A DNA stretch of 64,000 nt, from positions 682,001-746,000 of the forward strand of contig NZ_OY808998.1 of assembly GCF_963681195.1 (NCBI RefSeq). The letters are read 5' to 3'. The translations under genes and the position numbers were made by a program. The notes under the pieces are model-generated. The model saw nothing but the letters and a program-made list of their open reading frames with translations, ran no database searches and had not been told where the DNA came from. The stretch is from Vibrio sp. 16. GTDB lineage: Bacteria > Pseudomonadota > Gammaproteobacteria > Enterobacterales > Vibrionaceae. This document shows positions 3,295 through 23,951 of the stretch, in pieces (within the stretch, counting starts at the first letter, position 1; every line of letters starts with the position of its first letter).

Positions 3295-3301
3295 TATTCA
3301 A

Positions 3302-4238: not shown

Positions 4239-4276
4239 ATCTGTTTAATCTAGACTCAGTCATTTTGGAGTATTTG

Positions 4277-5701: not shown

Positions 5702-5772
5702 GTTAAAGCCTTTTGTTTGGTTTTGAATTGTGTAGGTGGCTAGACGAACTCGCCTAGCCAGAGATCGTTTGT

Positions 5773-6159: not shown

Positions 6160-6173
6160 CTTGCTTCCCCTAG

Positions 6174-7442: not shown

Positions 7443-7457
7443 GATTAGACCGTTTAT

Positions 7458-8021: not shown

Positions 8022-8623
8022 TTACTTCGAACTCTAAATAAACTTGCTATTTATTATCACGCAGAAAATGCCCCAAAAGGCAAATTTGACCTCAAAAAAG
8101 CCCAGTTTATGTGATGTAAATCACACAAAAGACCAGATTAACCAAACTGTCACTAATTCGACATCTAATATTTTGAGCAATAACCTTTAAAATCCAACCA
8201 AGTTAAACAGAACTAGAAATACGAACACTCGAATAAAATCTTATCTCTTACCAACAACCAAGAGATACTTAGAAAAACCCAAGTTAAATCATTAAAAATA
8301 AACAATTTAAATAAAGCCAGAATCACAAGGTAGAGGTTTAATTGTGTACAAACCTTACTATTCTTCGATCAAAAACCTCTCCAATTCATTTGAAATAGAT
8401 TTCTTTTTTATTTAGAGTACAAAGCAAAAATTAGGGTGAGTATCAGAAAAAGGACAATGACATGGCTCCCATACCGGACGATAAAGGGCTCTCTGGGAAG
8501 TTTGGAGAAGGGACCTAACGCGCAGGTTCTGTACTAGCCATTTTCGATAAGCGACCCTTTGTAGTTTGCCCCAAACATACATAGACTTAAGCTACTCTAC
8601 CTCCACGTTGTATTGACAAGCCA
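8022..8623. other. divergent regulatory region between ectA and the amidohydrolase gene
   Basis: About 600 bp of mostly AT-rich DNA. It holds the CRP-type site at 8110-8125 near ectA. From about 8450 it becomes more GC-balanced and contains two tiny overlapping plus-strand ORFs (8457-8537 and 8462-8518) after an AAAAAGGA sequence. Their coding status is unsupported. No further operator could be defined by eye; a CosR site would be expected near ectA on general grounds. Confidence 0.5.
8110..8125. promoter_or_regulatory. CRP-type binding site upstream of ectA
   Basis: The sequence is TGTGA-tgtaaa-TCACA, a full match to the CRP half-sites with the standard 6-bp spacer. It lies 89 bp before the ectA start codon, close to typical activator positions. 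Carbon control of ectoine synthesis is an inference. FNR or a CRP-family relative could also use such a palindrome. Confidence 0.7.
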
Positions 8624-10294
8624 ATGACCCGACTCTCTAACACCGCTCTCGCACTAAGCCTGATTTTGTCTAGCTGTGCCGCCTTTGCCCAAACCACTGA
8701 TATGCTGATCTCAAATGCAAAGATCTATCAGCATCCGGATGCCGACACCCTTGTGATTGCGCAAGGGAACATTGTTCATATTGGTACCAAACACTCAGCT
8801 GCTGTCTATAAAACGTCGACCACTCACATGATTGATGCTGAGCAAGCGTTTTTGATGCCAGGGTTTATCGACAATCACAATCATGTATTTGAAGCCGCCT
8901 CTGAAGCTGGCGGACAATGCGAGTTGAGCATGAGTGCCTCTCTGCAAGAGCAACGCCCTTATCTCGAAGCATGTAAAGCTCAGCACACTGGAGAGGGTTG
9001 GTTGATGGGCTATGGATTCTCATTAGAGGCGATTCTAGGTGAGCACAACCACGATACCCCACTCGACGTGATTGATTCTGTCTTCCCAAATCAACCTGTC
9101 ATCCTGATGGAGCAAACCTCGCACTCTATGTGGGTTAATTCTGCGGCGCTTGCCGAAGCGGGTATCACGTCGTCAACGCCAGATCCTCAAGGCGGAAGAA
9201 TACTCAAAGATGAGTACAGCCAAAAACCAAACGGCATCTTATTAGATAACGCAGGCGATCAAGTGATGGAGATAGCGTGGAATGCGTTGGAAAATCAGTT
9301 TGAGCAAAGCTATCAGGGATTAATGAATGGTCTGGAAGAAGCGGCGTCTCACGGCATTACCACCATAGGGGACGGGCGCCTATATTGGAAACGAAGCTGG
9401 TTTGATGTCTGGAAACAAGCAGAAAAAGAACAAGATCTAACCGCCAGAGTCTCATTACGTCCATGGATATATCCGGCAGATCCTGTGAAACCGCAACTTG
9501 ATTTCCTTAAACGAGTCCACTCTAACGATACCTCGCGTCGACTGCTGGTCAATCAGGTAAAAATGTACAGCGATGGCATCTTCATTAATGGCACCGCCAA
9601 GACTCTCGCGCCCTATTTAGACACTTACTTACCCAATGATCCGTACGGTATTAATTACATTCCACCAAAACAGATGAAAACGTGGCTCAATGAGCTAGAT
9701 CGAATCGGATATGGCGCTCACATTCATGCCATTGGCGATGGGGCGATCCGCGAATCATTGGACGCCATCGCCAGCGTTCGTCGCCAATCCCCTCATCGCC
9801 CTTACACACTGACTCATGTAGAACTGGTCAACGTAAAAGACAGCTCCCGCTTTAAGACACTTGATGTAACCGCGGATTTTCAGGTGGGATCGGATTACGT
9901 CGCCTACCACGATCACCAATGGGCGCAGGCGTTTTTGGGGGCGACACGGGCACGAGCGCTAATGAACCTAAGAGCCCTATTTAACGCAGGTGCTAACGTG
10001 ACATTAAGCAGCGATTGGAACGTGCACGATATCAACCCTCTCGTTGGTATCGCCAATAGCGTAAAAATGGGAGAGACCGGGCTGCCATCCGTAGATGCGG
10101 CGATAAAGGCTTACACCATAAACGCAGCGAAAAGCTTGGGAATCAGTGATATCACTGGCTCCATCGCAATCGGCAAATCCGCCGACTTGGTCCTAATCGA
10201 TGATGACATCACACAATTAATGCCCAATGACATCGCGAAAGCCACCGTGTTAATGACCATGCTGCAAGGTGAGATTGTCTATGAGGCTCAGTAA
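8624..10294 (+). CDS. exported amidohydrolase, YtcJ-like (amidohydrolase family 3)
   Basis: The 556-aa protein starts with a signal peptide. The cleavage could be AFA-Q (type I), or LSSC could act as a lipobox at Cys 18. The metal-dependent hydrolase fold is shown by DNHNHVF (HxH metal ligands), HAIGDGAI and LSSDWNVHDINP, where a late His/Asp pair sits. Such YtcJ-like enzymes hydrolyse amide or cyclic amide bonds outside the cytoplasm; the substrate is unknown. It is divergent from ectA with a weak ribosome-binding site and converges on the esterase gene. Confidence 0.85.
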   Translation: MTRLSNTALALSLILSSCAAFAQTTDMLISNAKIYQHPDADTLVIAQGNIVHIGTKHSAAVYKTSTTHMIDAEQAFLMPGFIDNHNHVFEAASEAGGQCELSMSASLQEQRPYLEACKAQHTGEGWLMGYGFSLEAILGEHNHDTPLDVIDSVFPNQPVILMEQTSHSMWVNSAALAEAGITSSTPDPQGGRILKDEYSQKPNGILLDNAGDQVMEIAWNALENQFEQSYQGLMNGLEEAASHGITTIGDGRLYWKRSWFDVWKQAEKEQDLTARVSLRPWIYPADPVKPQLDFLKRVHSNDTSRRLLVNQVKMYSDGIFINGTAKTLAPYLDTYLPNDPYGINYIPPKQMKTWLNELDRIGYGAHIHAIGDGAIRESLDAIASVRRQSPHRPYTLTHVELVNVKDSSRFKTLDVTADFQVGSDYVAYHDHQWAQAFLGATRARALMNLRALFNAGANVTLSSDWNVHDINPLVGIANSVKMGETGLPSVDAAIKAYTINAAKSLGISDITGSIAIGKSADLVLIDDDITQLMPNDIAKATVLMTMLQGEIVYEAQ

Positions 10295-10300
10295 ACACTC

Positions 10301-10353
10301 GACTCTATGCCGCAATCTGAGCGAGTTGACTTTCAGATGGTGGACATAGAGTC
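10301..10353. repeat. inverted repeat between convergent genes
   Basis: GACTCTATG (10301-10309) and CATAGAGTC (10345-10353) are a perfect 9-bp inverted repeat with a 35-bp spacer, filling the gap between two convergent stop codons. The long loop and lack of a T-run make it a doubtful terminator. Confidence 0.5.
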
Positions 10354-10360
10354 ATTATGA

Positions 10361-11260
10361 TTAATGAAGAGTTGGTAAGTATCGCTGTACAAATGTCACG
10401 ACATGGGGCACATACTTTTCGGTATCGAAAACTGGCGCACTATGGCCAACCCCCTCTTCAATCCACAGCTGATTCTCGACGCCAAATGCGTCCAACTTAG
10501 CTTTTAGCTGCTCACTCTGTGCTAGAGGCACGCGCTTATCTAGTGTGCCGTGAAGCTGAATGAATGGTGGCGTTTTTTCATTAACGTACGTCGTCGTCGA
10601 TGCCTGTTTCGCAATTTCTGGGATCACGCTAGGCGTATTGCCCAGGAAACGAGATACCGAGGATTTGTCACTAACCGCTTTCCCTCCTTTGTAACCCAAC
10701 GCCAGTAAATCCGTTGGTCCAAAGAAACTCACGACTGCGCTAACCTGATATCTCGGTTGGTGATAAAGCGAGAGGTTGTCTTGTGAGTTTGTCACACCAA
10801 TCAAGCCCGCCAAATGCCCACCAGCCGAGCGACCCATCATCACCACATTATCTGCAGCCACATTAAACAGCTCGGCGTGATCATGAAGGTAGTTTAGGGC
10901 ATCGTTGATATCCACAATGGCAGCCGGAAAGGTCGCTTCTCCACTTAACCGGTAGTCGATAGACGCCAACGCATAACCTTTTTGCATCATAGAGCGTAAA
11001 AGTAATGGATTCTTTGTCGGAATCGCGTCTTTACTGCCTCGTTTCCAAGCTCCACCGTGAACCCAAACTAGCAGTGGATAGGGTTGCTCTGCCATTTGCT
11101 TCGGTTTGTACAGGTCGAGCATAAGCGTACGACCATCAAGAGTCTTATAGACAATGTCTTTGGTGACTTCGAACTCATCACTTGCATGGGTGCTACTCAT
11201 ACCCAGCAATGATATGGCGAAGAGCGCGACTGCTCGATTCCAGCGTTTTAACTTCGACAT
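10361..11260 (-). CDS. periplasmic alpha/beta hydrolase (esterase)
   Basis: A 299-aa protein with a signal peptide ending near THA-S (residue 27). The oxyanion-hole motif HGGAW is at about 68-72, the nucleophile elbow GRSAGG at about 143-148 (Ser 145) and a late GVGHS supplies the His, as in the hormone-sensitive lipase/BD-FAE group. Its ATG overlaps the stop of the TonB-receptor gene by one base (TAATG), so the two are translationally coupled. Context suggests it acts on the ligand brought in by that receptor, for example cleaving a siderophore ester. This is inference. Confidence 0.85.
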   Translation of the reverse strand: MSKLKRWNRAVALFAISLLGMSSTHASDEFEVTKDIVYKTLDGRTLMLDLYKPKQMAEQPYPLLVWVHGGAWKRGSKDAIPTKNPLLLRSMMQKGYALASIDYRLSGEATFPAAIVDINDALNYLHDHAELFNVAADNVVMMGRSAGGHLAGLIGVTNSQDNLSLYHQPRYQVSAVVSFFGPTDLLALGYKGGKAVSDKSSVSRFLGNTPSVIPEIAKQASTTTYVNEKTPPFIQLHGTLDKRVPLAQSEQLKAKLDAFGVENQLWIEEGVGHSAPVFDTEKYVPHVVTFVQRYLPTLH

Positions 11261-13179
11261 TAGAATGACGCCTCTGCTGCAATCCAGTAACGACGACCAT
11301 CCTCAACATAGCCGTATTCATCGTAGCTTGTTTCTACATCAAAGACGTTATAGACGCCTGCCATTAGCTTAAGTTGTTGATGGACCTGCCAGTTTCCGCC
11401 GAAGTCGACATAGGTGATCGAAGGTGCAGAAACATTGCGCGAATCAACAGTAACAGGCTCCGACTCTTCACTGCGATAGGATGCACGTAACCAAGCGTTG
11501 ATGCCTTCGCGAATTACCCAATCTGAATTAATCGCTACAAGGTGCTTTGGCGCTTGCGTTAAAGGTTGCCCTTTGTCATCACCAGACAGCTTTTCACTGT
11601 AGGTATAGGTGTAAGTTGCTCCTAGACTAACCGTCTCTGTAATGGCTTTTTGAATCGAGCTTTCCGCACCATAGGTTTTCGCGTCTTCAATGTTTACATA
11701 CGTTGAGTCACATGCGCGTCCAGAGCAGTTTGGATCCAGCTTCACCTTGTCAATTTTGTCTTTAAACTCATTGTAAAACACCGTCAAACTAGAGTTGAGC
11801 TCATTGATACCCGTGTAGTAGAGGCCCAACTCGGTGTTCACCGAAGACTCTGGTTTAAGGTCTGCGTTGCCGTAGATCTCGCATCGCCCATTGCAACTCT
11901 CTTGCACCCACTCCTCTTCCATTTCCGTGAGACTCGGTGAGCGGTAGCCCGTTGACACTCCACCTTTCATTGTCCAGTCTGAACTCAAGCTCCAAACACC
12001 GTAAATACGTGGGCTCAAGTGAGAGTTGAATTGCTCATTGTCGTCATATCGTAAGCCGAGTGTCAGAGCAAAATCGTCGGCCAGATACCACTCATCTTCC
12101 GCAAAAAGAGACCACTGAGTATTATTGAAAACGAAATCGCCATTATCGAGCTCTTCACTCTGATACGCTGCGCCAAACGATACGTAATGCATGCCTAACG
12201 CTTTCGACCATTGTGTATTTGCGTTGATATTGTGTACGGCTAAATCGCGCCCAACATTCTCCACCTTCTCGCTACTCACGTAAGACGAACCCGTGATGGA
12301 TTCATAATTTGCGTCATGGGATAAGCCCAAAGATCGGCGGTTATTGGTCGTCTCGGAGCTCTTGGTGCGTGTTTTGCCTTCGGTATTAACGCGCTCTTGA
12401 TCGTGATATGTGTAATCGAGGGTAAAAGTATCAGTATCTGTCGGCGTTAGATAAACAGACGCACGATAGTTTTCTAGCGTTTTTCCGCCATTAGCATAAA
12501 GAATCTCATCTTCAATTCGCTCTTGGTACATACCTGAGATGGCCGTGCTGAGCAAACCATCGATCAGAGGCCCAGCCAAATAGACTTCACCTTGATAGAA
12601 ATGACCAGACTCGTCATTTTCTTGTAACGTGGCTTCCGCACGAACACTGCCTGTCCAACTTGGGAAATCCTTGCGCGTAATGATATTTATGACGCCGCCT
12701 ATCGCATCAGAGCCGTACAATGTCGACATTGGTCCGCGTACCACTTCTATCCGCTCAATCGCATTTAATGGTGGCAGCCAATCTTGCTCAAAGCCACCAC
12801 CACTGCTCACTTGTGTCTCTCGGCCAGATTGCTTGCGACCATCCACCAAAATAACTGTGTATTCAGACGGCATACCACGCAATGAAATCTCTTGACGCGA
12901 TCCTCCTCCCGTAACAACAACACCTGGAATGTCCTTCATAGCATCGGTGAGATCTTTATATGAACGTGTTTCAAGTTGCGCTCGGTCAATGACACTGATC
13001 GATGCGGGAGCTTCGAGCGTCGACTGTTCATAGCCAGAGGCGGTAACCACAACGGTTTCCATAGTGGTTGTATCGTTATCTGATGGAGATTGTGCAGAAG
13101 AAGCAAAAGGGGTCACAGCCGTGAAACTCAGCGCAGCATAGACGACTGAATTCACGTTTAAAGGAGGATTCTTGAGCAT
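11260..13179 (-). CDS. TonB-dependent outer-membrane receptor, CirA/IrgA-like
   Basis: The 639-aa protein has a signal peptide, a TonB box ETVVVTA at about residue 41, and a plug with SLRGMPSEYTVILVDGR and ERIEVVRGPMSTLYGSDAIG. It ends in a beta-barrel with C-terminal aromatic Phe. The plug resembles catecholate siderophore receptors such as CirA, FepA and Vibrio IrgA. The ligand is not certain. A Fur-type palindrome lies 23 bp upstream, supporting iron control. An AGGAGG-type sequence lies only about 15-20 bases inside the reading frame, not before the start, so the start is chosen by signal-peptide quality. The coupled esterase follows. Confidence 0.9.
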   Translation of the reverse strand: MLKNPPLNVNSVVYAALSFTAVTPFASSAQSPSDNDTTTMETVVVTASGYEQSTLEAPASISVIDRAQLETRSYKDLTDAMKDIPGVVVTGGGSRQEISLRGMPSEYTVILVDGRKQSGRETQVSSGGGFEQDWLPPLNAIERIEVVRGPMSTLYGSDAIGGVINIITRKDFPSWTGSVRAEATLQENDESGHFYQGEVYLAGPLIDGLLSTAISGMYQERIEDEILYANGGKTLENYRASVYLTPTDTDTFTLDYTYHDQERVNTEGKTRTKSSETTNNRRSLGLSHDANYESITGSSYVSSEKVENVGRDLAVHNINANTQWSKALGMHYVSFGAAYQSEELDNGDFVFNNTQWSLFAEDEWYLADDFALTLGLRYDDNEQFNSHLSPRIYGVWSLSSDWTMKGGVSTGYRSPSLTEMEEEWVQESCNGRCEIYGNADLKPESSVNTELGLYYTGINELNSSLTVFYNEFKDKIDKVKLDPNCSGRACDSTYVNIEDAKTYGAESSIQKAITETVSLGATYTYTYSEKLSGDDKGQPLTQAPKHLVAINSDWVIREGINAWLRASYRSEESEPVTVDSRNVSAPSITYVDFGGNWQVHQQLKLMAGVYNVFDVETSYDEYGYVEDGRRYWIAAEASF

Positions 13180-13201
13180 GGTGATAGTTAACTTACTTGC
13201 A

Positions 13202-13220
13202 ATTGATAATTGTTATCAAT
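13202..13220. promoter_or_regulatory. Fur box upstream of the TonB-dependent receptor
   Basis: The 19-bp sequence ATTGATAA-TTG-TTATCAAT is a perfect 8+3+8 palindrome closely matching the Fur consensus (GATAATGATAATCATTATC). It ends 23 bp from the receptor start codon, where bound Fur would block transcription or ribosome access. Confidence 0.85.
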
Positions 13221-13319
13221 TAGATGTTAATTACCCCACAGTTTCAATCAATAACGTATTCACAATGTAAAATCTCGCTATGCAGGATCTGAAACGTTGT
13301 CAGGATATCTTGTATCCAG

Positions 13320-14258
13320 TTAGGCAGACAACGCTTCTTCGTCAAACAATTCATTGATCAATTCACGCACCCAGACACACATAGGATCATCATGAAAACG
13401 CTTGTGCCAGTATAGATAAACCTGTGAAAAATCCAGACGCAATGGCTCTGGCACCTCTCGCGTAATCAAACGTTCATCTTGGCATGCAGCTTCTGCGAAC
13501 GGAGTGGGTAAATGGAAGATAATGTCTGTTTCCGCAGCAATGCTTGGCGCCGAAGTAAAGTTGGTAAGCTGCACTGGTGCCGACAAACGCTGCTTTTTGT
13601 TGGCAAGCCCAAGCTCAATGAACTTATGTTCGAAAGAGAGGGTTTTCTCTCCCTGTAATGAGATCTGCCCAAAATGGCAATTGCACAGTTTTTCCGCTGT
13701 CAGCTCTTGCTCAGCCAAAGGGTGATTACGGCTCATCAATAGGCGAAAGTCTCTCTTAGCTATCGCCTTTCGATAAATCGTATTTTCCGACGTAGGTGGC
13801 TGATGAGAAGAAAGTGAAAAATGAACATCACCCGATACAAGATCCTCAAAATGACGCTTTGGTGTGGTATCAATACTGACGACAAGATTCGGCGCCCGTT
13901 CACGTATGGCCGCCACAAGCCTAGGCATAATCGTATTGATTTGTGGTTGAAGGCCGTAAAAACGAAGGGTTCCTTCCACTTTACTCGGCTCGAAAGAGTT
14001 AGTGTTAGAAAGTTTTTCTAAGCTAATGATTAAAGAAGAAATATCCTTTTTGATGACTTCCGCTTTGGAAGTCAACTCATAGCCAAAACTGCTCCTAACC
14101 AAGAGCTCATCATCGAAAAAGACCCGCATTTTTTGCAATGCTCGACTGACTGAAGATTGACTGGTATTCAATAACAACGCCGTGTTAGACACATGTTTTT
14201 CTTCGAGTAAGTATTTCAAAATATAGAGGGATGTAACATCGACTTGAGGGATTTGCAT
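13320..14258 (-). CDS. LysR family transcriptional regulator
   Basis: A 312-aa regulator with the winged helix-turn-helix at the N-terminus (ALLLNTSQSSVSRALQKMR) and a substrate-binding effector domain. The ATG at 14258 (MQIPQVDV) is preferred to a GTG ten codons upstream because it matches the usual LysR N-terminal length. It lies 140 bp upstream of the Fur-boxed receptor, on the same strand, not divergent as irgB is from irgA in V. cholerae. It may regulate the receptor-esterase pair, but this is only positional. Confidence 0.85.
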   Translation of the reverse strand: MQIPQVDVTSLYILKYLLEEKHVSNTALLLNTSQSSVSRALQKMRVFFDDELLVRSSFGYELTSKAEVIKKDISSLIISLEKLSNTNSFEPSKVEGTLRFYGLQPQINTIMPRLVAAIRERAPNLVVSIDTTPKRHFEDLVSGDVHFSLSSHQPPTSENTIYRKAIAKRDFRLLMSRNHPLAEQELTAEKLCNCHFGQISLQGEKTLSFEHKFIELGLANKKQRLSAPVQLTNFTSAPSIAAETDIIFHLPTPFAEAACQDERLITREVPEPLRLDFSQVYLYWHKRFHDDPMCVWVRELINELFDEEALSA

Positions 14259-14418
14259 ACGCTGCTCTTGCTTCCAAAATGGGGTCACTGCTTAGCCAAA
14301 CACTCGGCTCACTATTCACTTTATCAATAAATAGTTTGCAGAGATAGCGCTGCTAATTCCGTCCATTTTGCAATCACTCGCTTACCACATATGTAAAGTC
14401 CCACTTGTGGTACGCAAC

Positions 14419-14594
14419 AAAAAAGCCAGCATGACAGACATACTGGCTTTTTGGACTGCTTAAACATACGTTAAGCTGGCTTGTGATTATATTGAGCCTT
14501 ACTTACCACCAATGCTCAAACGAGCAAAGCGAACGTCTGGCGAGAAGAAAGTGCGGCTATCGTTAATCTGCTGAGTATCACCCACAGCCACAAC
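14419..14594. repeat. duplicated 3' end of pmbA with its terminator, copy 1
   Basis: By eye this 176-bp stretch matches 21143-21318 with about nine differences and no gaps (offset 6724). It contains the last 32 or so codons of the PmbA reading frame (stop complement at 14499-14501), the spacer and the same terminator hairpin. Upstream of 14594 the sequence changes abruptly to an S66 peptidase remnant; below 14419 it is unrelated to the DNA beyond the other copy. Confidence 0.92.
14420..14452 (-). terminator. terminator hairpin, copy in the duplicated pmbA tail
   Basis: AAAAAGCCAG (14420-14429) pairs perfectly with CTGGCTTTTT (14443-14452) around a 13-nt loop, with T-runs in both directions. 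It is identical to the hairpin at 21144-21176. Confidence 0.85.
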
Positions 14595-15238
14595 GTACCC
14601 CACAGCCTCCAATCAGGTGCGCCTCAATCACCAAACTAGATTCAGGACTAGCCACCGCCAGTTTGAAGGCGTATCGGGTGCGATCCCATTCGCTGGGTTA
14701 TTCACAATGTCCGGCCATTGGCTTGCATACATACCCAATGCGTTTTGAGAAAAACTCTCACCGAATGGAGTAGCAAGGTAGTTGAGCGTGTTAGAGGTCA
14801 GCGCGTCTTTCGCTTCTGGGACTAAATCCATTAAGTTCAAGCAATGCCCTGTCGCCCAGCGAAGCTTACTGGTAAAAACTGCCGCCACCGTACTGATATC
14901 TGAAAAGCCTAAAATCCATTTTGGCCTTGTATGCTCTAGTTTGGCAAAATCAATGAGGGGTAACAGCTACATCTCCAACTCCCCCCCCAAGGTGGATAGA
15001 TAGCATCAATGTTGTCATCGAAAAGAAACGTCATCAGCTCTTCTAAACGCTGCTCAATGGGCGCACTCACATGCTTAAGTTCGCCATATTAACACTTGCC
15101 TACAACAACAGTGAAACCACAGGATTCAAGGTGCTGCTTAATGATGTCAAACCTAGGCTGGTGGGCTTTGGCTATCCCACACGAGAATGCCGTAATTGCA
15201 ATCGTGCTTCCTTGACGTAACGGATTAGGGTACTTCAT
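14595..15238 (-). pseudogene. decayed S66 LD-carboxypeptidase (MccF-like) fused to a pmbA tail
   Basis: Starting at ATG 15238, the reading begins MKYPNPLRQGSTIAITAFSC, typical of S66 peptidases. It then meets an in-frame TAA after VVVGKC, continues with LKHVSAP, EQRLEELMTFLFDDN and AIYPPWGG, loses frame at a run of eight C, and resumes with LLPLIDF and WILGFSDIS, the nucleophile-Ser motif. A further frame carries HLIGGC just before the pmbA-tail junction. At least one stop and two frame changes show it is dead. S66 enzymes cleave murein tetrapeptides or, as MccF, inactivate microcin C. The C-terminal part is missing. Confidence 0.85.
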
Positions 15239-15355
15239 TGTTTTTTCTCAGTAATTTAAGCCTGATATCAACGTACCTATTTCCAACCGCGATTTCAACG
15301 TTGCTTATTTAACCGACAAATCACATCCACTTTCGGAAGCCAACTTTGGAAAGCG

Positions 15356-16147
15356 TTACATTTTGTTTATCAAACGGTACTCGGAGTTGGAGAGAATCGC
15401 ATCCTCCAACACACCAATTCCTAGTGTGCTGTAACCAAAGAAGTTCGGCTTAACTGTGGAACGAAATGACTGGACAGCCTGGGCTAGATTATCATCCAGC
15501 ATGAGCGCATCTGCCACAGCAGACAACCGTGTTTGATTCGCAGGAGCTATGGGCGAAAGAAACTCACTGACACCACTAATCGAAGAGTATAAGAAGGCAA
15601 ATTCCCCGCCGTTATTCTCCTCAATATAGTAACTACCCGTGCGAGCATAAGCAGCGCGAACTTCATTGACACTCTCAATTGCGTTGATGTTGCGATCAAA
15701 AAACTGCGCTCCACCAGCATGTTCGATCGTTTCTGGTTTGAATCCATCGTTCGGGAAGACCAAATAAGCAACAATCGCATTATCTCGAGCGATAGCAGAT
15801 AAGACAAAGTTATCATCTTGGTAGTACTGAATTACATCACCTGTGGAAGAACGTTTAATATAGACTGGCGCCCCAAACGTTTGATCAAGCACTTGCGCCG
15901 AAGAACGAATGTAAATTTTATCGAGCTTATTGTGCGATGGAATATCCGTCATTTGAGACAGTCCGAAATTAACCATCTTGTTGATGGCATCAAAGCTGTC
16001 ATTAAAACCTCCCAGTGCAATCGACACCACAGAGGCTAAGCCGATCGCGCGGGCCCATCCTCCAGATAAAGCGCTACTGTTCACTTCTTCTGACGTAGAG
16101 GCTCGTACAGCGTCTCCGCTCACTTGATTTGTGTGATCTGTTGCCAT
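15356..16147 (-). CDS. 263-aa membrane-associated protein, possibly ETEC_3214-like
   Basis: A soluble Ser/Thr-rich N-terminus of about 30 residues is followed by one hydrophobic segment (GWARAIGLASVVSIALGGF) and a long extracytoplasmic or cytoplasmic domain with FGAPVYIKRSSTGDVIQYYQ. That segment resembles, from memory, the ETEC_3214 domain; unverified. It starts two bases after the stop of the 56-aa gene, with its AAGGATAA ribosome site inside that gene. It is the last gene of the envelope operon. Function unknown. Confidence 0.7.
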   Translation of the reverse strand: MATDHTNQVSGDAVRASTSEEVNSSALSGGWARAIGLASVVSIALGGFNDSFDAINKMVNFGLSQMTDIPSHNKLDKIYIRSSAQVLDQTFGAPVYIKRSSTGDVIQYYQDDNFVLSAIARDNAIVAYLVFPNDGFKPETIEHAGGAQFFDRNINAIESVNEVRAAYARTGSYYIEENNGGEFAFLYSSISGVSEFLSPIAPANQTRLSAVADALMLDDNLAQAVQSFRSTVKPNFFGYSTLGIGVLEDAILSNSEYRLINKM

Positions 16148-16149
16148 TG

Positions 16150-16320
16150 TTATCCTTTAAACTCATCGATCTTGTCTAGTAAGGCTTCTTTTCCTTCTTC
16201 AGCTTGCTCTTGAACCTGCTCAAATGCCTTGGTATCGGTAATTTGTTCTATCTCTTCTGAGTAATTGAAGCCGACATATATGCCAACAGCCACAAAGAAA
16301 ACAGCAAAAATCTTAAACAT
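16150..16320 (-). CDS. small single-pass membrane protein, 56 aa
   Basis: The ATG at 16320 gives MFKIFAVFFVAVGIYVGF, one N-terminal transmembrane segment, followed by an acidic, probably helical tail (EEIEQITDTKAFEQVQEQ). A TTG four codons upstream is rejected. It sits between the MltC-like gene and the 263-aa gene, with 2-bp spacing to the latter, so all three are likely co-translated. It could be an inner-membrane accessory subunit; no family recognised. Confidence 0.65.
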   Translation of the reverse strand: MFKIFAVFFVAVGIYVGFNYSEEIEQITDTKAFEQVQEQAEEGKEALLDKIDEFKG

Positions 16321-16377
16321 GGTTTTTCTCAATTGTTTTGGTCACAGTACAAATACACCCACGAGGTGTCTGAGCAA

Positions 16378-17844
16378 TCACTGATAAAGAGCGATGCGGC
16401 TCGTCACTTTTTTCAAATACCCTTTGGTCTCATCGTAGGGAAGCTCCTCCATCAACTGGTGATAGACTTGATCTGGGGACATAGCATTAATCACTGTCGC
16501 AGCTTTGTTGATGTTGGTCGAACGGTCTGCATTGAAGGCACGCGCAACATTTCCTGCCCCTGTGTTATAAGCAGCAATCATGCAATAAAGTCGACTCTCA
16601 TCATTCTCTATTTTTCTCAGATAGCGCCGATTTAAAATATCTAAATACGCCACTCCCGTTTCAACGTTGATCGTTGGTTTATACAGTTCCGAGGGCGTCA
16701 TAGGAGCGTCAATATTCCGAACTTGCTTATTGACGTCATGCCCTGCACTCGTCGGTACTACCTGCATCAAACCATAAGCTGGGATGTGGGATTTGGCGTC
16801 CGGGCGAAACGCCGACTCAGAGTGCATAATTGCCATAATCAGGGCAGCGTCAACTTGCCAGTTTTTACTCTCGTTTTGCGCTAGGGGCGCGTACTGACTG
16901 GCGCGTGTTTTGAGGCTATTTTCTGGGAGCGTCACCTTGTAGCTGACCACTTTTTGAGGGGCGGTCGGGGCACTTGCCACTCTTACATTTGGCGAAGTTG
17001 GGCGTTTTAACTCCTTTTCACTCGCCTCTGACTTTGAAGATGCTTTTTTAGGCTCTCCATGCACAACTTGATCACGAGCGACAAACTCAGGTTCAGACTC
17101 TGACAATTCTGGAGTTTCAGCATGTGCGACAACAATGCCATACTGAGCCCTCATCTTGGCGTAGAGTTCACTTTGCGCTTTTATGCGAGCTTGCGCTTGC
17201 TCTAAAAGCGCCATCTTTTTGGTATGCGCCCTCTGATAAATAAAAGCATCAGGGGCACCTGTCTTCGCGTTGATTAATCGCTCTGCTTGAACGTCCAACT
17301 CATTCATTTGACGTTGAGTTTGGGCAATGACAAACTGCTTCTCTGCTTGCTCTTTTTCCAGCGAATAGGTTATGGCGTGGTCTTGCCACTGCCCAGCGTC
17401 AATTTGTACTCCCTCACTAACAATGTCCTCAGGCAAAACACTGAGTAGTTCCTGCGACGTTTTGGCTGACGCATCCAGATCAACCAGAACAGAAACCGTC
17501 GCAACATTTGCTTCATAGTCGATACTCATTCTTGTCGAATCATTGTTGGAATAGCGCACATCTTTCGTTGCAGTCGAAACCGCCCCCTCACCCCACTTTG
17601 TAATCAAGTCAGCCCGTCGTTGATCAAGCGTTTTGGTATACTGATCTCGCCACGCTTCATACTCATCCAGATAGTGATTCACATAGGCATGAAACGCTTT
17701 TTTCTTGTCTTCTGGTGATTGATTCACCTTTGCTACCGCTTGGTTTAGTTGCGTTAACTGCTCATCGGAAATCGCCCATGCTGGTGTGCTAAACCAAGCT
17801 GATATGACAACGGCCAACACGCTTTTCGTTATATTTGAATACAT
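16378..17844 (-). CDS. lytic murein transglycosylase, MltC-like
   Basis: A 488-aa exported protein: type I signal peptide ending near AWA-I (residue 24), an N-terminal domain like that of MltC (DUF3393 type), a Lys/Ser/Pro-rich linker at about 250-300, and an SLT lysozyme-like domain with catalytic Glu at about 343 in MHSESAFRP, then IPAYGLMQVVPTSAG and AAYNTGAGNVARAF. It would cleave peptidoglycan with formation of 1,6-anhydro-muramyl ends in the periplasm. Unlike E. coli MltC there is no lipobox. A strong terminator-like hairpin lies just upstream, which may tune its expression. Confidence 0.88.
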   Translation of the reverse strand: MYSNITKSVLAVVISAWFSTPAWAISDEQLTQLNQAVAKVNQSPEDKKKAFHAYVNHYLDEYEAWRDQYTKTLDQRRADLITKWGEGAVSTATKDVRYSNNDSTRMSIDYEANVATVSVLVDLDASAKTSQELLSVLPEDIVSEGVQIDAGQWQDHAITYSLEKEQAEKQFVIAQTQRQMNELDVQAERLINAKTGAPDAFIYQRAHTKKMALLEQAQARIKAQSELYAKMRAQYGIVVAHAETPELSESEPEFVARDQVVHGEPKKASSKSEASEKELKRPTSPNVRVASAPTAPQKVVSYKVTLPENSLKTRASQYAPLAQNESKNWQVDAALIMAIMHSESAFRPDAKSHIPAYGLMQVVPTSAGHDVNKQVRNIDAPMTPSELYKPTINVETGVAYLDILNRRYLRKIENDESRLYCMIAAYNTGAGNVARAFNADRSTNINKAATVINAMSPDQVYHQLMEELPYDETKGYLKKVTSRIALYQ

Positions 17845-17866
17845 ATTTTTCCTTTAAGCCGATAAA

Positions 17867-17891
17867 AAAGACCGCCAGCATGGCGGCCTTT
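17867..17891 (-). terminator. intercistronic terminator or attenuator before the MltC-like gene
   Basis: In the minus direction the hairpin is GGCCGCCA-tgc-TGGCGGTC, followed by six T. It sits 30 bp after the stop of the 204-aa lipoprotein gene and only about 23 bp before the next start codon. This is inside an otherwise tight operon, so it likely gives partial read-through. Confidence 0.75.
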
Positions 17892-17920
17892 ATGTCCCCT
17901 AACATTTCATCAATGCTCGA

Positions 17921-18535
17921 TTATTTCTTCAAAGCTTCAAATGCTTCCGCCAAATCGGCGGCAGCTTGTTCATTGTTAAACTGATCCCAAAGCGCCGAGT
18001 CTTTGCCACTCACTTGATCAATTACGGTATTCATATTGGCATCAAAGGTCGCTTGATCCATTCCAACAAGGACATAAACACCACCAGTGGGGCTCGCTTG
18101 GCTAACGATCACGCGACTGTTGGTCAAACTTCGAGTCACCACACTTTTGGTGATGTTCTCAAATGTCTCTTGAACGTCTTCGGTGATCTCTGTTCCAGCC
18201 AGTGTTTCAGATGTAGTTACCGAGCTTTCAATCGCTTGCTGAAAAAGATTGTTAACGTCAGTCTGGAATTGGCTAGCCAAGTTGACTCGCGCATCATTCA
18301 CGGCAACCTTACGCATCACATTCAGTCCTGCAGGACTTTTTTTCGAATAGCCTGTTGCTCCAGCCGCAAGGCCAGTTGGCAGTACGTCGCATATCCACCC
18401 AGGCGCGGCGACAGTAGGCGCATCTGGAAATGTACACGGAGCAAAGTTCTGTGCCTGTTCTACGCTAATGGTATTCGTACTTTGGCATCCGGCAAGCAAC
18501 GTAACCAAAGAGACAGAAATCAGTGTTTTTTTCAT
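17921..18535 (-). CDS. LPP20 family lipoprotein (204 aa)
   Basis: Type II signal peptide with lipobox LLAGC (Cys 17). The mature part contains the LPP20/FlgP-type pattern: WICDVLP near the start, then AVNDARVNLASQFQTDVNN, a variable middle, and VIVSQASPTGGVYVLVGMD. FlgP and LPP20 proteins are outer-membrane lipoproteins. Here the neighbours are another LPP20 lipoprotein, a CsgG-like lipoprotein and a murein transglycosylase, suggesting a joint outer-membrane/peptidoglycan structure. It follows the CsgG-like gene by 19 bp. Confidence 0.8.
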   Translation of the reverse strand: MKKTLISVSLVTLLAGCQSTNTISVEQAQNFAPCTFPDAPTVAAPGWICDVLPTGLAAGATGYSKKSPAGLNVMRKVAVNDARVNLASQFQTDVNNLFQQAIESSVTTSETLAGTEITEDVQETFENITKSVVTRSLTNSRVIVSQASPTGGVYVLVGMDQATFDANMNTVIDQVSGKDSALWDQFNNEQAAADLAEAFEALKK

Positions 18536-18554
18536 GATAGGCCCCTTGCTATGG

Positions 18555-19538
18555 CTACTTCATCCAACATTCAATATCGCCTAGGCGGCATTTCTCTGGG
18601 ACCACTTTGCCCAATGACCCTTTTTGCACTTTCAGTGCTGTTTCTTCATCGATAGAAACCCAAGAGTATTTAGGAGTCACTGCATTGTGTTCATTTTTAA
18701 CCACATAGCCTGTACCTATAGGGAACACTTCAAGCTCACCATCCATCGACTTCATACCTTTCGTAAAGAGTACTTCCGCACCAGGCTCGATACGCTTGTT
18801 CTTACCCATGTTCAGACGAACCATACTGCCATGCTCACATTGGCGCAGCTCTAACACTGGAGCACTCGCAGCCAACATTTTTTTTAACTCGTAGGTATGT
18901 TCGACCGCTTCTGCGGCTGCTTTGCTTGCTAGGCTTTGGTACTGACCTACCGAAATAGGACAGTCAGAGCGACGCTCTTCTACTTCAATATCTTCATCAC
19001 CTTCCATTTCGATACGTTTCAGTAGTTCCATACTTGGAATAGAGACCACTTTAGCGACCGCTTTCACTTTGACTTTGAAATCACACTCTGCAGGGTAACG
19101 TTTCACTTCGCCATCCGCTTTCTCACGGGTACGGGCTTCTTTGTGCTTATAGGTGAGGTTTGATGCGGTAATTTCAGTGATGATGGCGATATCCGCGATG
19201 GAAGCACCTTTGGTACTAACGCGCCCACTATGCTCTGCAAGAATCAGTTCATTTTTGAGTTTATTGGCTAACGACCGATCAACCAGTTCAGCCCCCGACT
19301 TCGCAATCTGAGCTTCTAATGAATTTCGCATAGAACTCATCAGTTTTGTCGCAGCTTGATCGTGAAAAGAGATGCTTGGTGGCAACACAATCACTTTAGT
19401 ATCTTCCGTGGAAGGAATACTTATCTCCGTAGTATCAATCTCGACGCGTGTATCGGGAGTACAGACTTCATCTGCGATACGTGTACACCCCGACAAAGCG
19501 GTAATCAGCGCACTTGCCACCAACGTTTTTTTTAACAT
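18555..19538 (-). CDS. CsgG/LpoB-like lipoprotein (327 aa)
   Basis: Lipobox ALSGC with Cys at 18. The middle follows a CsgG/LpoB/FlgO-type layout: strand VIVLPPS, helix around SSMRNSLEAQIAKSGAELVD, then ADIAIITEITASN. The C-terminal part (VRLNMGKNKRIEPGAEVLFT) looks like a small beta domain such as that at the end of FlgT. Proteins of this fold form outer-membrane rings or activate cell-wall synthases from the outer membrane. It lies between two LPP20 lipoprotein genes with 19 bp and 46 bp gaps. Assignment is by pattern and context only. Confidence 0.7.
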   Translation of the reverse strand: MLKKTLVASALITALSGCTRIADEVCTPDTRVEIDTTEISIPSTEDTKVIVLPPSISFHDQAATKLMSSMRNSLEAQIAKSGAELVDRSLANKLKNELILAEHSGRVSTKGASIADIAIITEITASNLTYKHKEARTREKADGEVKRYPAECDFKVKVKAVAKVVSIPSMELLKRIEMEGDEDIEVEERRSDCPISVGQYQSLASKAAAEAVEHTYELKKMLAASAPVLELRQCEHGSMVRLNMGKNKRIEPGAEVLFTKGMKSMDGELEVFPIGTGYVVKNEHNAVTPKYSWVSIDEETALKVQKGSLGKVVPEKCRLGDIECWMK

Positions 19539-19584
19539 TCTTATCTCCGAATATTTTGTAGTCTATTGTTAAAGGAATACGGTG

Positions 19585-20568
19585 TTAATTATTTAAGCCC
19601 AACACATTCCATATTCCTTTTTCGTTAATTTGTTCATTTAGGTGCCTAGCAGCCCCTTCATCAGCATATTTATAGCTAAGAACCGAATTGCCGGTAGAAA
19701 TAATCTCATTGCTTGAAATTGTTCTATTCTTAATATCTTTAACTTTTATCTTATAAACAATGGTTGAAATATAGTTACCAGATAATTCACTGCTACGTTT
19801 TTCCCCAGTTACTTTAATGACATGAGTTTGACCACGTCGACGTAACTGATCCGTCGCAATATTAAACTCTGAAAGTTGCTCACCGATAAAACGCAAAGCG
19901 AGTCTAGACTGAGAATCGCTCTGCAACCCAAAGTAAAAAGAACTGACCACTTGTTCATACAGGGCTACATAATCAGACAGTTGTGAAATATTAGGTTGGA
20001 AGCTGGGGTCAAGTGGCGCTAGCATAGAAATACGCACGAGCGCATCACGGTGCAACTGACGCGCATCACTATTTTCAAGCCACCAAAGCAACCTATCTTG
20101 ACGGTCGAAACGAAGCAGTTGCATGGACGCTTTCTGGTTCATTTCGCGCAACTCACGTTTTAGCTGCTCAATTATCGAAGACTTTTTTATTCGAACTTCA
20201 ACAAATGATCCTAACTCATTCTCTTCAATTTTAACAAATTCTATACCATTCAGAGTTAGTGACTCTGTTTGGGTATTAATTTTGTTATCTACCAAGTTAT
20301 TAATAGAGGAATTATTACTCGACTCTTTAAATACTTCCCTGATATAAGTTGAAGAGTCAACTTGAGTCCACAAGCTTTCATTAATATTGCTTACTGCAAT
20401 TTTTTTAGCATGAGGTAAATTTCTTGCCTGCGCGACTGAGTATAAATATTGATCACTACTTACCTTCGGATTTAGATACCAATCAGGTTTAGTTGTTTGA
20501 CAGCCGGTTAAGAAAGAGGCAGAAGCAAGTTGAATTAGGACGAGAGTACGCCGCCTCATAAAAGACAT
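19585..20568 (-). CDS. LPP20 family lipoprotein (327 aa)
   Basis: The ATG at 20568 gives MSFMRRRTLVLIQLASASFLTGCQ, a lipoprotein signal with lipobox FLTGC. A TTG six codons upstream is rejected. The mature start DWYLNPKVSSDQYLYSVAQA is typical of LPP20-type lipoproteins, followed by the IAVSNINESLWTQVDSSTY helix. The C-terminal half is longer than usual and unassigned. It is the first gene of the envelope operon and is more AT-rich than its neighbours, as is the 570-bp leader before it, consistent with transfer from elsewhere. Confidence 0.75.
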   Translation of the reverse strand: MSFMRRRTLVLIQLASASFLTGCQTTKPDWYLNPKVSSDQYLYSVAQARNLPHAKKIAVSNINESLWTQVDSSTYIREVFKESSNNSSINNLVDNKINTQTESLTLNGIEFVKIEENELGSFVEVRIKKSSIIEQLKRELREMNQKASMQLLRFDRQDRLLWWLENSDARQLHRDALVRISMLAPLDPSFQPNISQLSDYVALYEQVVSSFYFGLQSDSQSRLALRFIGEQLSEFNIATDQLRRRGQTHVIKVTGEKRSSELSGNYISTIVYKIKVKDIKNRTISSNEIISTGNSVLSYKYADEGAARHLNEQINEKGIWNVLGLNN

Positions 20569-21142
20569 TTTTTGAACCAAAATCAAATAAATACGCCGAG
20601 AATACTATATGCCGATTTTTATAAATTCAAGGCAATGAAAATGAGTCTGTATATATTTCCTACATATTCGTTTTTATATTTTACAATATCCTGACACAAC
20701 TTCGATCAATAAATAGACAGGAGATTATAGCATTATCAATATAAGTCGTTGTTTTTAATGAAAACAAATCTATAAAACTCATTTAAAAATATTAATCAAT
20801 AGTATTTTTTGTTTTTTTATTTCATTATCAAAAATGTGACAGCAAACGTATTCCTATATGATACGGTCTAATCTTTATCGTACACAAATTACTCTAAGCA
20901 CAAACCGTCTCTCTATTTTTCCACACCTAATGTTGCGGGTTGACTATTATCCAAATGTTTCTTTTTCCAAATATACGTGGTTTGAAATTACCCTACGCAA
21001 GGGGCATGCTTCGTGTTGATGACACACTCTCATCCTCAGTCTACGGAACATCGACTATTAAACGCGTTTTTGATGCCAACTCTAAAGCAGAAAGGAAATA
21101 CGGGATTGTGTTTGGACAAAGACAATTACTCTCAAACAATCC
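20569..21142. other. AT-rich region upstream of the envelope operon
   Basis: About 570 bp. Positions 20620-20880 are very AT-rich with A and T tracts, as expected of an H-NS-bound promoter of horizontally acquired genes. The more balanced part at 20930-21142 has only overlapping short plus-strand frames that resemble nothing known. The promoter of the LPP20 gene should lie here but no clear -35/-10 pair is claimed. Confidence 0.5.
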
Positions 21143-21318
21143 AAAAAAGCCAGCATGACAGACATACTGGCTTTTTGGGCTGTTTAAACATACGTTAAAC
21201 TGGCTTGTGATTATTTTGAGCCTTACTTACCACCAATGCTCAAACGGGCAAAGCGAACGTCTGGCGAGAAGAAAGTGCGGCTATCGTTAATTAGCTGAGT
21301 ATCACCCACTGCCTCAAC
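21143..21318. repeat. 3' end of pmbA with its terminator, copy 2 (attached to the intact gene)
   Basis: This is the native-looking copy: it ends the intact 447-aa PmbA reading frame at 21223 and includes the terminator at 21144-21176. It is the partner of 14419-14594, in the same orientation 6724 bp away. Confidence 0.92.
21144..21176 (-). terminator. terminator of the tldD-pmbA pair
   Basis: AAAAAGCCAG (21144-21153) with CTGGCTTTTT (21167-21176), loop 13 nt, T-run on both strands. It lies 47 bp past the pmbA stop. Confidence 0.85.
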
Positions 21319-22566
21319 TTCTTGCAGCATCTTGTAGAAGTTACCCGCAACCGTGATACCACGCACTGGTTGAATGCGCTCACCATCACGGCACAAGAAG
21401 CCACTCGCACCAAACGAGAAATCACCACTCACTGCATCCGCACCAGAATGGACACCTTGAAGTTCGACTAACTCTAGGTACTCACCCGCTTTTACTTCTG
21501 ACGCACTGCTGTTACCTGTCGCAATCACTTTGTGATTCGCTGATACGTCTAGGCTCGATTTTGCACCGCGAGCGGCACTTGCTGTCGAGACTGCGCCCAA
21601 GTAACTTGCGGTCTGGCTGTTGTGTAGCAAGGTTTTCAAATCACCATTAGCAATCATCACATTGTCTTGAGTTGCAAAGCCTTCACTATCAAAACTCGCG
21701 ATTGCCATACCATTTGGCATGTAAGCCGTATCAGTAAAGGTAATCAAATCACTCGCAACACGTTGACCAAGCTTGTCACCCAGTGGCGTAATGCCTTTCA
21801 TCGCGCTTACGCCAGAGAAAGCACTGCCGAAAGCACCGAATAAACTTGCTAGCGCATTGATGTGGAAGATAGCAGGGTAGTTACCCGTCGCAACCGGAGC
21901 ACCTTCCAGAAGATCGCGAGCAAGGTTGTAGCCACCCTCGATACAGTAAGTTGGATTCAACTCATCAAAACGGCGACCCAGTGACATTCTACCCGCCATC
22001 GACTGTTTACCGTCTTTTTCAAACAAGGTATACGCGTAACAAGTGAACGAGCGCTCGAAGTGTTGACACAATGTACCTTGAGTATTGGCAATGATCAGTT
22101 GTGTTTCGCCATCGCTGTAACCATTGTAAGGTGCGCTAGAAGCGTGAGGTAGCGCTACTACGCCTTGCTCAAGAGCGAGAGACAGTTCAATTTTTTCATC
22201 AACCGAAGTTGTGTCTTCTTGCGCAATCGCAGCTACGTCAGTCGTGATTTGGCTGTTCACGCAGCTAATGGTCTGATGTTCGTCTTGCTTGGAAAAGCGA
22301 GCGCTTTGTAGTGCGTTGGTCAGCATCAAATCTAAGCTTGGTTGCTCTAACGACTCAGAATAGCTTGTTGCAACACGCGCATCTTTCACAACACGAACAC
22401 CCAGAACTTGGCTTGAGCTTACTTTGTACTCATCCAGCTTTCCTTGGTTCGCTTTCAAAGAAAAGCTACTGTTGCGGTTTACAATGACGTCCGCTTCTGC
22501 ACCTTGGCGTTTTGCTTCTGATAGGACGTAATCAACCGCATTAAGAAGTTGTTGTTCTTGGCTCAT
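21223..22566 (-). CDS. pmbA: PmbA/TldE-type metalloprotease subunit
   Basis: A 447-aa protein of the TldD/PmbA family (U62). It lacks the HExxxH zinc motif, as TldE/PmbA subunits do, and has the C-terminal features FGASGFLCRDGERIQPV and ITVAGNFYKML. TldD and TldE together form a heterodimeric zinc protease that trims peptides such as the microcin B17 leader and CcdA. Its ATG overlaps the tldD stop by one base (TAATG), so the subunits are made together. Its last 32 codons are duplicated at 14499-14594. Confidence 0.85.
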   Translation of the reverse strand: MSQEQQLLNAVDYVLSEAKRQGAEADVIVNRNSSFSLKANQGKLDEYKVSSSQVLGVRVVKDARVATSYSESLEQPSLDLMLTNALQSARFSKQDEHQTISCVNSQITTDVAAIAQEDTTSVDEKIELSLALEQGVVALPHASSAPYNGYSDGETQLIIANTQGTLCQHFERSFTCYAYTLFEKDGKQSMAGRMSLGRRFDELNPTYCIEGGYNLARDLLEGAPVATGNYPAIFHINALASLFGAFGSAFSGVSAMKGITPLGDKLGQRVASDLITFTDTAYMPNGMAIASFDSEGFATQDNVMIANGDLKTLLHNSQTASYLGAVSTASAARGAKSSLDVSANHKVIATGNSSASEVKAGEYLELVELQGVHSGADAVSGDFSFGASGFLCRDGERIQPVRGITVAGNFYKMLQEVEAVGDTQLINDSRTFFSPDVRFARLSIGGK

Positions 22567-23951
22567 TAGTTACCGCCTCCTACCAGAATGTTATCGACTT
22601 TCAGCGTTGGCTGACCGACTGTTGTTGGTACAGAACCACTTACTGAACCACACATGCCCGGCGCAAGCGCCATGTCTTTGCCGACCATGCTGATTTCTTT
22701 CAACACTTTTGGACCCGTGCTGATCAGCGTTGCAGTTTTCAGAGGTTTGGTGATTTTGCCATTTTCAATGAGGTAAGCTTCACGAACAGCAAAGTTAAAC
22801 TCCCCCGTACCCGGTTGAACCGAGCCGCCGCCCATCTTCTTCGCATAGATACCGCGTTCGATGCCAGCCAGCATGTCATCGAGTGAATGCTCGCCTTCTT
22901 CGATAAAGGTGTTACGCATGCGTGAGGTTGGTGCGAATTTGTAGTTTTGACGACGACCAGAACCCGTAGGTTCGTAACCTGTCTTCATGCCACCCATTTT
23001 ATCGACCATAAAGCTGGTTAGCTTACCGTCTTTGATCAATTGAGTGCGCTGAGTCTTCATACCTTCGTCATCAACGTGAATCGAGCCCCATTCGTTGGTC
23101 ATGGTGCCATCATCGACAGCATTCACAGCGGTGTGAGCAATCATTTCGCCCATCTTGTCGTGGAATACGGACGCTTTCTTTGCAACCGAAGTGGTTTCTA
23201 GTAAGTGGCCACACGCTTCATGGAAGATTACGCCGCCAAAGCCGTTACCAATGACTACTGGCATTTCACCCGATGGGCACGCATCCGCGCCAAGTTTTAC
23301 TAGCGCTTGCTGCGCGATAGTTTGACCTAGCTCTTTCGCATCAAGCTGTTCACTGAACTCCCAACCAGCAAGAGCGCCAGGACCTTCCATACCTGAAGAC
23401 TGCTCACTACCTTTTTGCGCGACAGTATTACCCGCAACTCGGATGTAGTGACGAGTATCGTCAACGTGTAGACCTTCTGAGTTGAAGATAGAGACTTGCT
23501 GTTCGCGCTGAAGTACGCTGCCGATGAACTGGCTGATATGTTCACTCTCTGCACGTGCGGCTTTATCAACTTGTAATAAGAAAGCGATTTTAGAATCTAG
23601 ATTGGCGTCTTTGCTAAGTGGCAGACGACAATCATGTTGAATTGGGTAGCGGTTCAGATTGAGAGAACCTGCTGACACGATTTGCTCACGCTTGTCTTTT
23701 GCTGCAAGCAGTGAGGTTACGCGTTTTAGTTCGGATTCATCGGTGCTGTTGGTGTAACCGTAAAGCACTTTATGACCGAAGAAGAGACGAATACCGATGC
23801 CAAAATCGATACCCGAGTTCACCTTGTCCACCTCGCCAGAGGCAATCTGGACAGTGTTGGTTTGATGGTGTTCAACGAATAGCTCAGCGAAATCAGCCCC
23901 TAAAAAGAGGGCATGATCGATCACCGCTTTCGCTGTTACAGAATTAAGCAT
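22566..23951 (-). CDS. tldD: TldD-type metalloprotease subunit
   Basis: The ATG at 23951 (MLNSVTAKAV) is chosen because AAGGAG lies at the right spacing; an ATG 11 codons upstream has none. The 461-aa protein has the zinc-binding HEACGH (HExxxH) in VIFHEACGHLLE and the late MCGSVSGSVPTTVGQP segment. It is the catalytic partner of the coupled pmbA product. In E. coli and, as far as I know, the usual Vibrio loci, tldD and pmbA are unlinked, so this adjacent pair may be a paralogous set. Confidence 0.88.
   Translation of the reverse strand: MLNSVTAKAVIDHALFLGADFAELFVEHHQTNTVQIASGEVDKVNSGIDFGIGIRLFFGHKVLYGYTNSTDESELKRVTSLLAAKDKREQIVSAGSLNLNRYPIQHDCRLPLSKDANLDSKIAFLLQVDKAARAESEHISQFIGSVLQREQQVSIFNSEGLHVDDTRHYIRVAGNTVAQKGSEQSSGMEGPGALAGWEFSEQLDAKELGQTIAQQALVKLGADACPSGEMPVVIGNGFGGVIFHEACGHLLETTSVAKKASVFHDKMGEMIAHTAVNAVDDGTMTNEWGSIHVDDEGMKTQRTQLIKDGKLTSFMVDKMGGMKTGYEPTGSGRRQNYKFAPTSRMRNTFIEEGEHSLDDMLAGIERGIYAKKMGGGSVQPGTGEFNFAVREAYLIENGKITKPLKTATLISTGPKVLKEISMVGKDMALAPGMCGSVSGSVPTTVGQPTLKVDNILVGGGN

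Follow-up and report, generated by a model that had tools for sequence, protein, structure and literature searches.

A strain-variable Vibrio operon that combines LPP20-type lipoproteins with an MltC-type lytic transglycosylase and an ETEC_3214-domain protein

A six-gene set kept together in several gene orders

The stretch of DNA analyzed here (the window) comprises 64,000 nucleotides (nt) of Vibrio sp. 16 (contig NZ_OY808998.1, positions 682,001 to 746,000). As the original prediction had proposed, it carries a set of six genes on one strand, which were confirmed as six minus-strand open reading frames (ORFs) and are named A to F in their order of transcription (Table 1). A, B and C are predicted lipoproteins, D is related to the lytic transglycosylase MltC, and E and F are predicted to be anchored by their N-termini. 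The parts belong to known families; what is new is that they are combined with an ETEC_3214 protein and a lytic transglycosylase, that the set is transferred and that one of its modules is exchanged. A search of the open-access literature, which left most subscription papers outside its reach, found no description of the six-gene set. Our preferred reading, put forward tentatively, is that the genes encode an independent unit that spans the envelope: a lytic transglycosylase of its own would be positioned or gated by outer-membrane lipoproteins, which are exchangeable, and the unit would include a partner in the inner membrane. Since the gaps between the genes are short (46, 19, 76, 57 and 2 nt, from A to F), the six probably constitute one operon.

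A search of the genus with C gave 39 matches in 36 of 196 genomes. Of these matches 31, at 31 loci in 30 genomes, were close (43-100% identity), and the other 8 were distant (26-31%); long stretches were examined around every close locus and around 7 of the distant ones, all but G078:C17. A-B-C-D-F was intact and collinear in 22 of the 31 close loci, with E present in 19 of the 22, and four more loci carried C-D-E-F with other lipoproteins replacing A-B. The remaining five were irregular: A was in two pieces and C shortened in genome G010, D was in two pieces in G063, G183 was without E and F, D and F lay upstream on the other strand in G078, and the second copy of G116 held C-D-E only. D was on the same strand as C in 30 of the 31 close loci, and in the other it was upstream on the opposite strand. 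The G010 locus (L012, 8920-11624), where A is split into two ORFs and an in-frame stop shortens C, may be decaying.

In the searches of the order with C, B and F, each over 394 genomes, strong matches were defined by E<1e-25 for C and E<1e-100 for B, thresholds that were set after the lists had been viewed. Strong C matches were found in 19 genomes and strong B matches in 15, all among those 19; these 15 genomes represent seven families, and F was present in 14 of them. With weak matches included, the totals were 44 for C, 18 for B and 29 for F, and in a sample of the class B was found in 5 of 369 genomes, the window's own counted. The orders observed outside the genus were F-C-D-A-B, F-A-B-C-D, and B-C-D-F with a divergent A, so that at least four gene orders were found with the genes still together. 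A lack of co-occurrence had been named beforehand as grounds for rejecting the original prediction, and what was found is that the genes stand together in many genomes and in several orders. Vibrio hepatarius HF70, the nearest named relative, has all six genes, and its B is 81% identical. In the comparison with V. hepatarius, the ratio of nonsynonymous to synonymous change (dN/dS) was 0.129 for A and 0.080 for E, and for B, C, D and F the synonymous sites were saturated and the nonsynonymous proportion (pN) was 0.11-0.20. This comparison shows that the six genes, as judged from their coding sequences, are under purifying constraint.

The lipoprotein half of the operon was found to have been exchanged. 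Between G011 (L010) and G170 (L144), the common upstream flanking protein is 97.8% and the downstream one 84.6% identical, and C, D, E and F are 85.7, 81.1, 88.3 and 86.2% identical, while A and B do not align with the corresponding lipoproteins (E 0.096 and 2.3). Furthermore, G018 and G199 combine a G011-type upstream flank (97.8 and 96.3%) with a replaced lipoprotein set. Since A-B is replaced at the same site and C-D-E-F is kept, we regard C-D-E-F as the core and the rest as exchangeable.

Table 1. Positions in the window of the operon genes, of the insert that carries them and of its flanking repeats (aa, amino acids)
Feature	Position	Strand	Basis or remark
Gene A, LPP20-domain lipoprotein, 327 aa	19585-20568	minus	Pfam LPP20; profile match to 4kzs; lipobox LTGC (by eye)
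Gene B, lipoprotein without a named domain, 327 aa	18555-19538	minus	lipobox LSGC (by eye); C-terminus against FlgT by hhalign
Gene C, Lpp20-like lipoprotein, 204 aa	17921-18535	minus	family profile to 5ok8; lipobox LAGC (by eye)
Gene D, MltC-type lytic transglycosylase, 488 aa	16378-17844	minus	SLT domain; hhalign to the genome's own MltC
Gene E, single-pass protein with an acidic tail, 56 aa	16150-16320	minus	homologue in 19/22 intact Vibrio loci; dN/dS
Gene F, N-terminally anchored ETEC_3214-domain protein, 263 aa	15356-16147	minus	NCBIfam NF043066
Insert carrying the operon, 6547 bp	14595-21141	none	absent from same-species genome G072
177-bp repeat, copy 1: 3′ end of pmbA and terminator	14418-14594	none	95% identical to copy 2
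177-bp repeat, copy 2: last 96 nt of pmbA coding sequence and terminator	21142-21318	none	95% identical to copy 1

The lytic transglycosylase, the anchored proteins and the lipoproteins

An MltC-like transglycosylase without a lipobox had been predicted, and the description proved apt. D carries an SLT domain (Pfam, E 2.5e-26), it aligns with the genome's own MltC with a probability of 100 over 306 columns, the N-terminal region included (hhalign), and solved MltC entries match it at 1e-68 or better. Glu343 of D, which lies within the catalytic ES motif, was invariant across 19 aligned rows. The Pfam family Mltc_N gave no match with D alone and a weak one, below the cut-off, with the homologue of G190 (0.0024). 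By its SLT domain and its MltC-type N-terminal domain D is, at the level of sequence, an MltC-type lytic transglycosylase. It differs from MltC in that it has an ordinary signal peptide and no lipobox (by eye), and is hence not predicted to be a lipoprotein, in its longer, variable linker, and in its place within a lipoprotein operon; the genome retains a separate, ordinary MltC besides D. The transglycosylases of L156 and L157 were not counted as D, since on the D profile they score 226 and 228 bits, at the level of the ordinary MltC.

The description of E as a single-pass protein and of F as a membrane-associated one agreed with the hydropathy profiles, in which each of the proteins A to F has one N-terminal hydrophobic segment and F has also a second, weak one at residue 115. 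F belongs to the family NF043066 (ETEC_3214) of NCBIfam, whose cut-off it exceeded (60.3 against 35 bits, E 1.6e-16); a search of solved structures with F gave nothing useful. Its domain is predicted to be on the periplasmic side. In the order sample F adjoined a D-type enzyme in 25 of the 29 F-positive genomes. At two other loci, L235 (8479-9255) and L236 (7917-8693), F-type proteins that are away from any D have a molybdopterin oxidoreductase and a set for a zinc-type ABC transporter in their neighbourhood (Pfam was used on L236 only).

That two of the lipoproteins are of LPP20 type was found directly for A, and for C through its family profile and not as a single sequence. With 31.9 bits (E 1.9e-7), A exceeded the Pfam LPP20 cut-off of 25.9 bits, and a profile of 17 A rows matched the solved entry 4kzs, the title of which names the secreted protein HP1454 of Helicobacter pylori, with E 7.3e-21 at profile positions 27-151. 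This is the best solved relative of A, the N-terminal half of which is HP1454-like and the C-terminal half without an assigned fold. C as a single sequence was under the LPP20 cut-off (15.6 bits, E 0.022), and a profile from 13 C proteins matched the solved H. pylori Lpp20 (5ok8) with E 0.0011. The kinship of A and C reached a probability of 97.5% by hhalign with the signal peptides included. The residue that follows the lipid cysteine is Q in A, T in B and Q in C, and we presume, from the sorting rule for this residue, that all three are directed to the outer membrane.

The CsgG/LpoB-like fold that had been suggested for B was not upheld. B gave no usable family match in Pfam, NCBIfam or solved-structure searches, and Pfam searches with 16 B homologues gave only scattered weak matches, none of them to CsgG. 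Profile-profile comparison of B with 19 CsgG-set proteins and FlgO did not rise above the controls, no LpoB profile match was found for B, and its own genome gave no CsgG match. AlphaFold models of A and B, built from two-sequence alignments, were of low confidence (pLDDT 44 and 39), and no match at E 0.001 or better was obtained with them in Foldseek.

A possible envelope unit and the alternatives

In the trans-envelope unit that we tentatively propose, A, B and C would be lipoproteins attached to the outer membrane on its inner face, D would be a periplasmic lytic transglycosylase that cuts peptidoglycan, and E and F would be held in the inner membrane, with the domain of F in the periplasm. 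The lipoproteins would position D and set where or when it cuts, so that the wall would be opened or remodelled only where the outer- and inner-membrane parts meet. The gene content, the conservation of the set, the domain families, the catalytic motif, the strain-variable location and the exchange of the lipoproteins follow from the sequences; we infer the membrane sorting, the physical contact, the gating and the purpose of the opening, which might serve an appendage, vesicle release, wall repair or the response to an attack.

Several results argue for such a unit. The set is conserved (22 of the 31 close loci, strong C in all 15 strong-B genomes, and F beside D in 25 of 29 genomes), and it stays together in at least four gene orders; D keeps the SLT residues and aligns with MltC, its N-terminal region included; A-B is swapped at a site where C to F remain 81-88% identical; and the genes are under purifying constraint relative to V. 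hepatarius. The predicted locations of the parts fit the trans-envelope or cell-wall-linked unit of the original prediction, and nothing was found that backs the export pore also suggested there. In addition, the H. pylori lipoprotein HP0018 may serve, by analogy, as a precedent for a lipoprotein that contacts wall-cutting enzymes, since PMC11394524 reports that it pulled down MltD and AmiA, a result for which its authors want confirmation; according to the same source, its gene adjoins an hp1457 homologue in many enterohepatic Helicobacter.

Other observations weigh against the proposed unit. The order genome G349 has A-B-C-D without F; outside the order, G580 has B beside A and C nearby, with no D or F found, and no other gene of the set was found beside B in G755 and G791. 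A C-like protein without D was observed at three of the 7 distant Vibrio loci that were examined (L085, L086 and L088), as well as at two loci of the order (L075 and L076, from genomes G398 and G380). F is away from D in 4 of the 29 F-positive genomes (G267, G278, G331 and G553), and the ordinary MltC of the genome reaches 238 bits on the D profile. The loci that have B without D or F, or a C-like protein without D, indicate that B and C serve elsewhere too.

Lytic transglycosylases need restraint, and the role of outer-membrane lipoproteins in it is still being worked out. A small transferable operon that packs a wall-cutting enzyme with its likely partners, and in which lipoproteins are swapped naturally, makes the specificity of the partners directly testable. 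LPP20 proteins are abundant H. pylori antigens, and the operon offers a genetic handle on them. A broader version of the proposal, which we regard as rather doubtful, is that a wider class of such units exists in gammaproteobacteria. A core of an Lpp20-like lipoprotein, an MltC-type enzyme and an ETEC_3214 protein would be combined with exchangeable sets of outer-membrane lipoproteins as front ends, some kin would have exported caspase-fold proteases, and the wall would be cut locally once sensing at the outer membrane permits it.

Two alternatives seem to us unlikely, and to the same degree. In the first, the operon would supply the polar flagellum, or another appendage, with an additional ring; A and C would form outer-membrane rings like those of FlgP and FlgT, and D would open the wall for them. 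The parallel of the lipoproteins with FlgO, FlgP and FlgT, drawn in the original prediction, turned out to be weak. Matches of A, B and C to these proteins (probabilities of up to ~80%) vanished once the signal peptides were removed, save that of the C-terminus of B with the C-terminus of FlgT, which kept a probability of 49.5% and a score of 34.2, against at most 22.2 for other pairs and at most 19.1 with one side reversed. A and C, which are closer to HP1454 and Lpp20, matched FlgP, FlgO and FlgT no better than controls (hhalign), so that sequence profiles do not place the lipoproteins among the FlgO/FlgP/FlgT ring proteins. An SHS2-like fold is common to FlgP, Lpp20 and FlgT (PMC12222027). 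The weak profile match and this common fold therefore place the flagellar link at the level of the fold. A ring-forming hairpin insert is unique to FlgP according to a figure of PMC12222027, where inserts are also linked to FlgT rings; C aligns to Lpp20 with short gaps, and the model of A reaches a pLDDT of only 44. The genome's own FlgT_N match is a single one, on contig C1, separate from the contig of the operon. We presume, from their position, that the genes beside this flgT are flgO and flgP, and the putative flgP scores 18.9 bits for LPP20, which is below the cut-off. Furthermore, C is present in only 36 of the 196 genus genomes, whereas a 31-genome sample had FlgT_N in 17 of its 19 members of the genus. 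The predicted absence of flagellar genes holds for those flanking genes of the window that were scanned. In H. pylori, PMC11756786 reports that HP1454 and HP1456 contact FlgP and FapH, which is in favour of a ring, and that deletion of hp1456 left motility and flagellar number unchanged, which is not. As a separate observation, a distant C-like LPP20 protein of another family adjoins FliE and FliF (by eye) in L089 (8001-8606), and may be a flagellar relative of C.

In the second of the two, the lipoproteins would activate a class A penicillin-binding protein (PBP) in the manner of Lpo proteins, and D would make room for new strands. The hp1454-hp1457 operon of H. pylori resembles the present one in that HP1454 is similar to A and HP1456/Lpp20 to C; it is not known to include an ETEC_3214 protein or a lytic transglycosylase. 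HP1457, from that same operon, is called an LpoB homologue in PMC11394524 and may by analogy be the counterpart of B. This, and the union of lipoproteins and a wall-cutting enzyme in one operon, would suit a control of wall synthesis; however, B lacks an LpoB profile match, no PBP gene was found among the genes typed in the loci, and a strain-variable presence would be odd for a synthase regulator. The operon cj0089-cj0090-cj0091 of Campylobacter jejuni also encodes three lipoproteins, of which Cj0091 is given as the HP1457 orthologue in PMC11394524. It differs from A-F in that its products have been studied as adhesion and colonisation factors, and no wall-cutting enzyme is named in the abstract of PMC3100323.

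Less probable still is a role in envelope defence or in conflicts, with D as a latent autolysin that an attack on the envelope would release. The operon is indeed strain-variable, repeat-flanked and modular, and at related loci LPP20 proteins have exported proteins with a caspase domain, or CHAT proteins, next to them. On the other hand, none of the six proteins matched PADLOC (E 1), so that they are not assigned to a known anti-phage system, and among 130 flanking proteins, taken from 25 loci, no more than 6 did so. Searches for C gave no match in phages, viral contigs or plasmids, and those for B and F none in plasmids. Finally, an outer-membrane export conduit formed by B and the LPP20 proteins is very improbable, given that it is suggested only by the earlier fold guess for B and by a wall-cutting enzyme of a kind common in secretion systems, and that no CsgG match was found, the block is without a substrate, outer-membrane barrel or energising protein, and the flanking genes differ widely (first 25 of 133 families).

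The insert at pmbA and related loci

The suspicion that the operon is on an island was confirmed insofar as its insert is missing from G072, a genome of the same species without C, and is flanked by 177-bp repeats. G072 matches the window at 97.6% over 3187-14594 and at 95.1% over 21142-23196, and its two matches overlap on a single 177-bp stretch that the window holds twice. A replacement of the insert in G072 by 175 bp was ruled out, because both alignments overlap on that one repeat copy. Since most relatives are without the genes (B in 6 of 61 genomes, C in 36 of 196), the evidence favours a gain of the insert here rather than its loss in G072 by recombination between the repeats. No integrase was found among the ORFs listed across the insert, which is therefore not assigned to the integrase-type islands despite its flanking repeats and strain variability.

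The operon is located between a LysR-type gene (13320-14288) on one side and pmbA (21223-22566) on the other, and a terminator-like stem is present in repeat copy 2 (21144-21176). Consensus scans gave 9 promoter-like sites, against a mean of 12.4 in shuffles; because such sites are no commoner than in shuffles, we propose no promoter. Outside the operon, the insert (14595-15355) holds short ORFs only. Two of these, 14628-14888 and 15089-15238, gave no Pfam match and may be gene remnants; the latter resembled the start of an LD-carboxypeptidase by eye, an assignment that is for want of a Pfam match not claimed.

Additional proteins were observed at related loci. The larger relatives L082-L084 and L155 have three additions: a lipoprotein that we label LpoB-like, a protein that matches FlgT_N below the threshold (20.4 against 28.8 bits), and a family of which one member (L084) matches DUF6844. 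A protein of ~600 aa with an apparent signal peptide is encoded in L232 (4415-6220), L233 (3111-4991) and L234 (12598-14535), together with F, small LPP20 proteins and an enzyme of the D type. In L232 this protein matches the caspase domain PF00656 (1.7e-11), and the copies of L233 and L234 were compared with it by eye. In L085 (2608-4965) and L075 (5431-7908), CHAT-domain proteins (7.5e-64 and 3.2e-75) with lipoprotein-like N-termini stand beside C-like LPP20 proteins, and similar CHAT proteins were detected in L086 and L076 with a profile that included the L086 protein itself.

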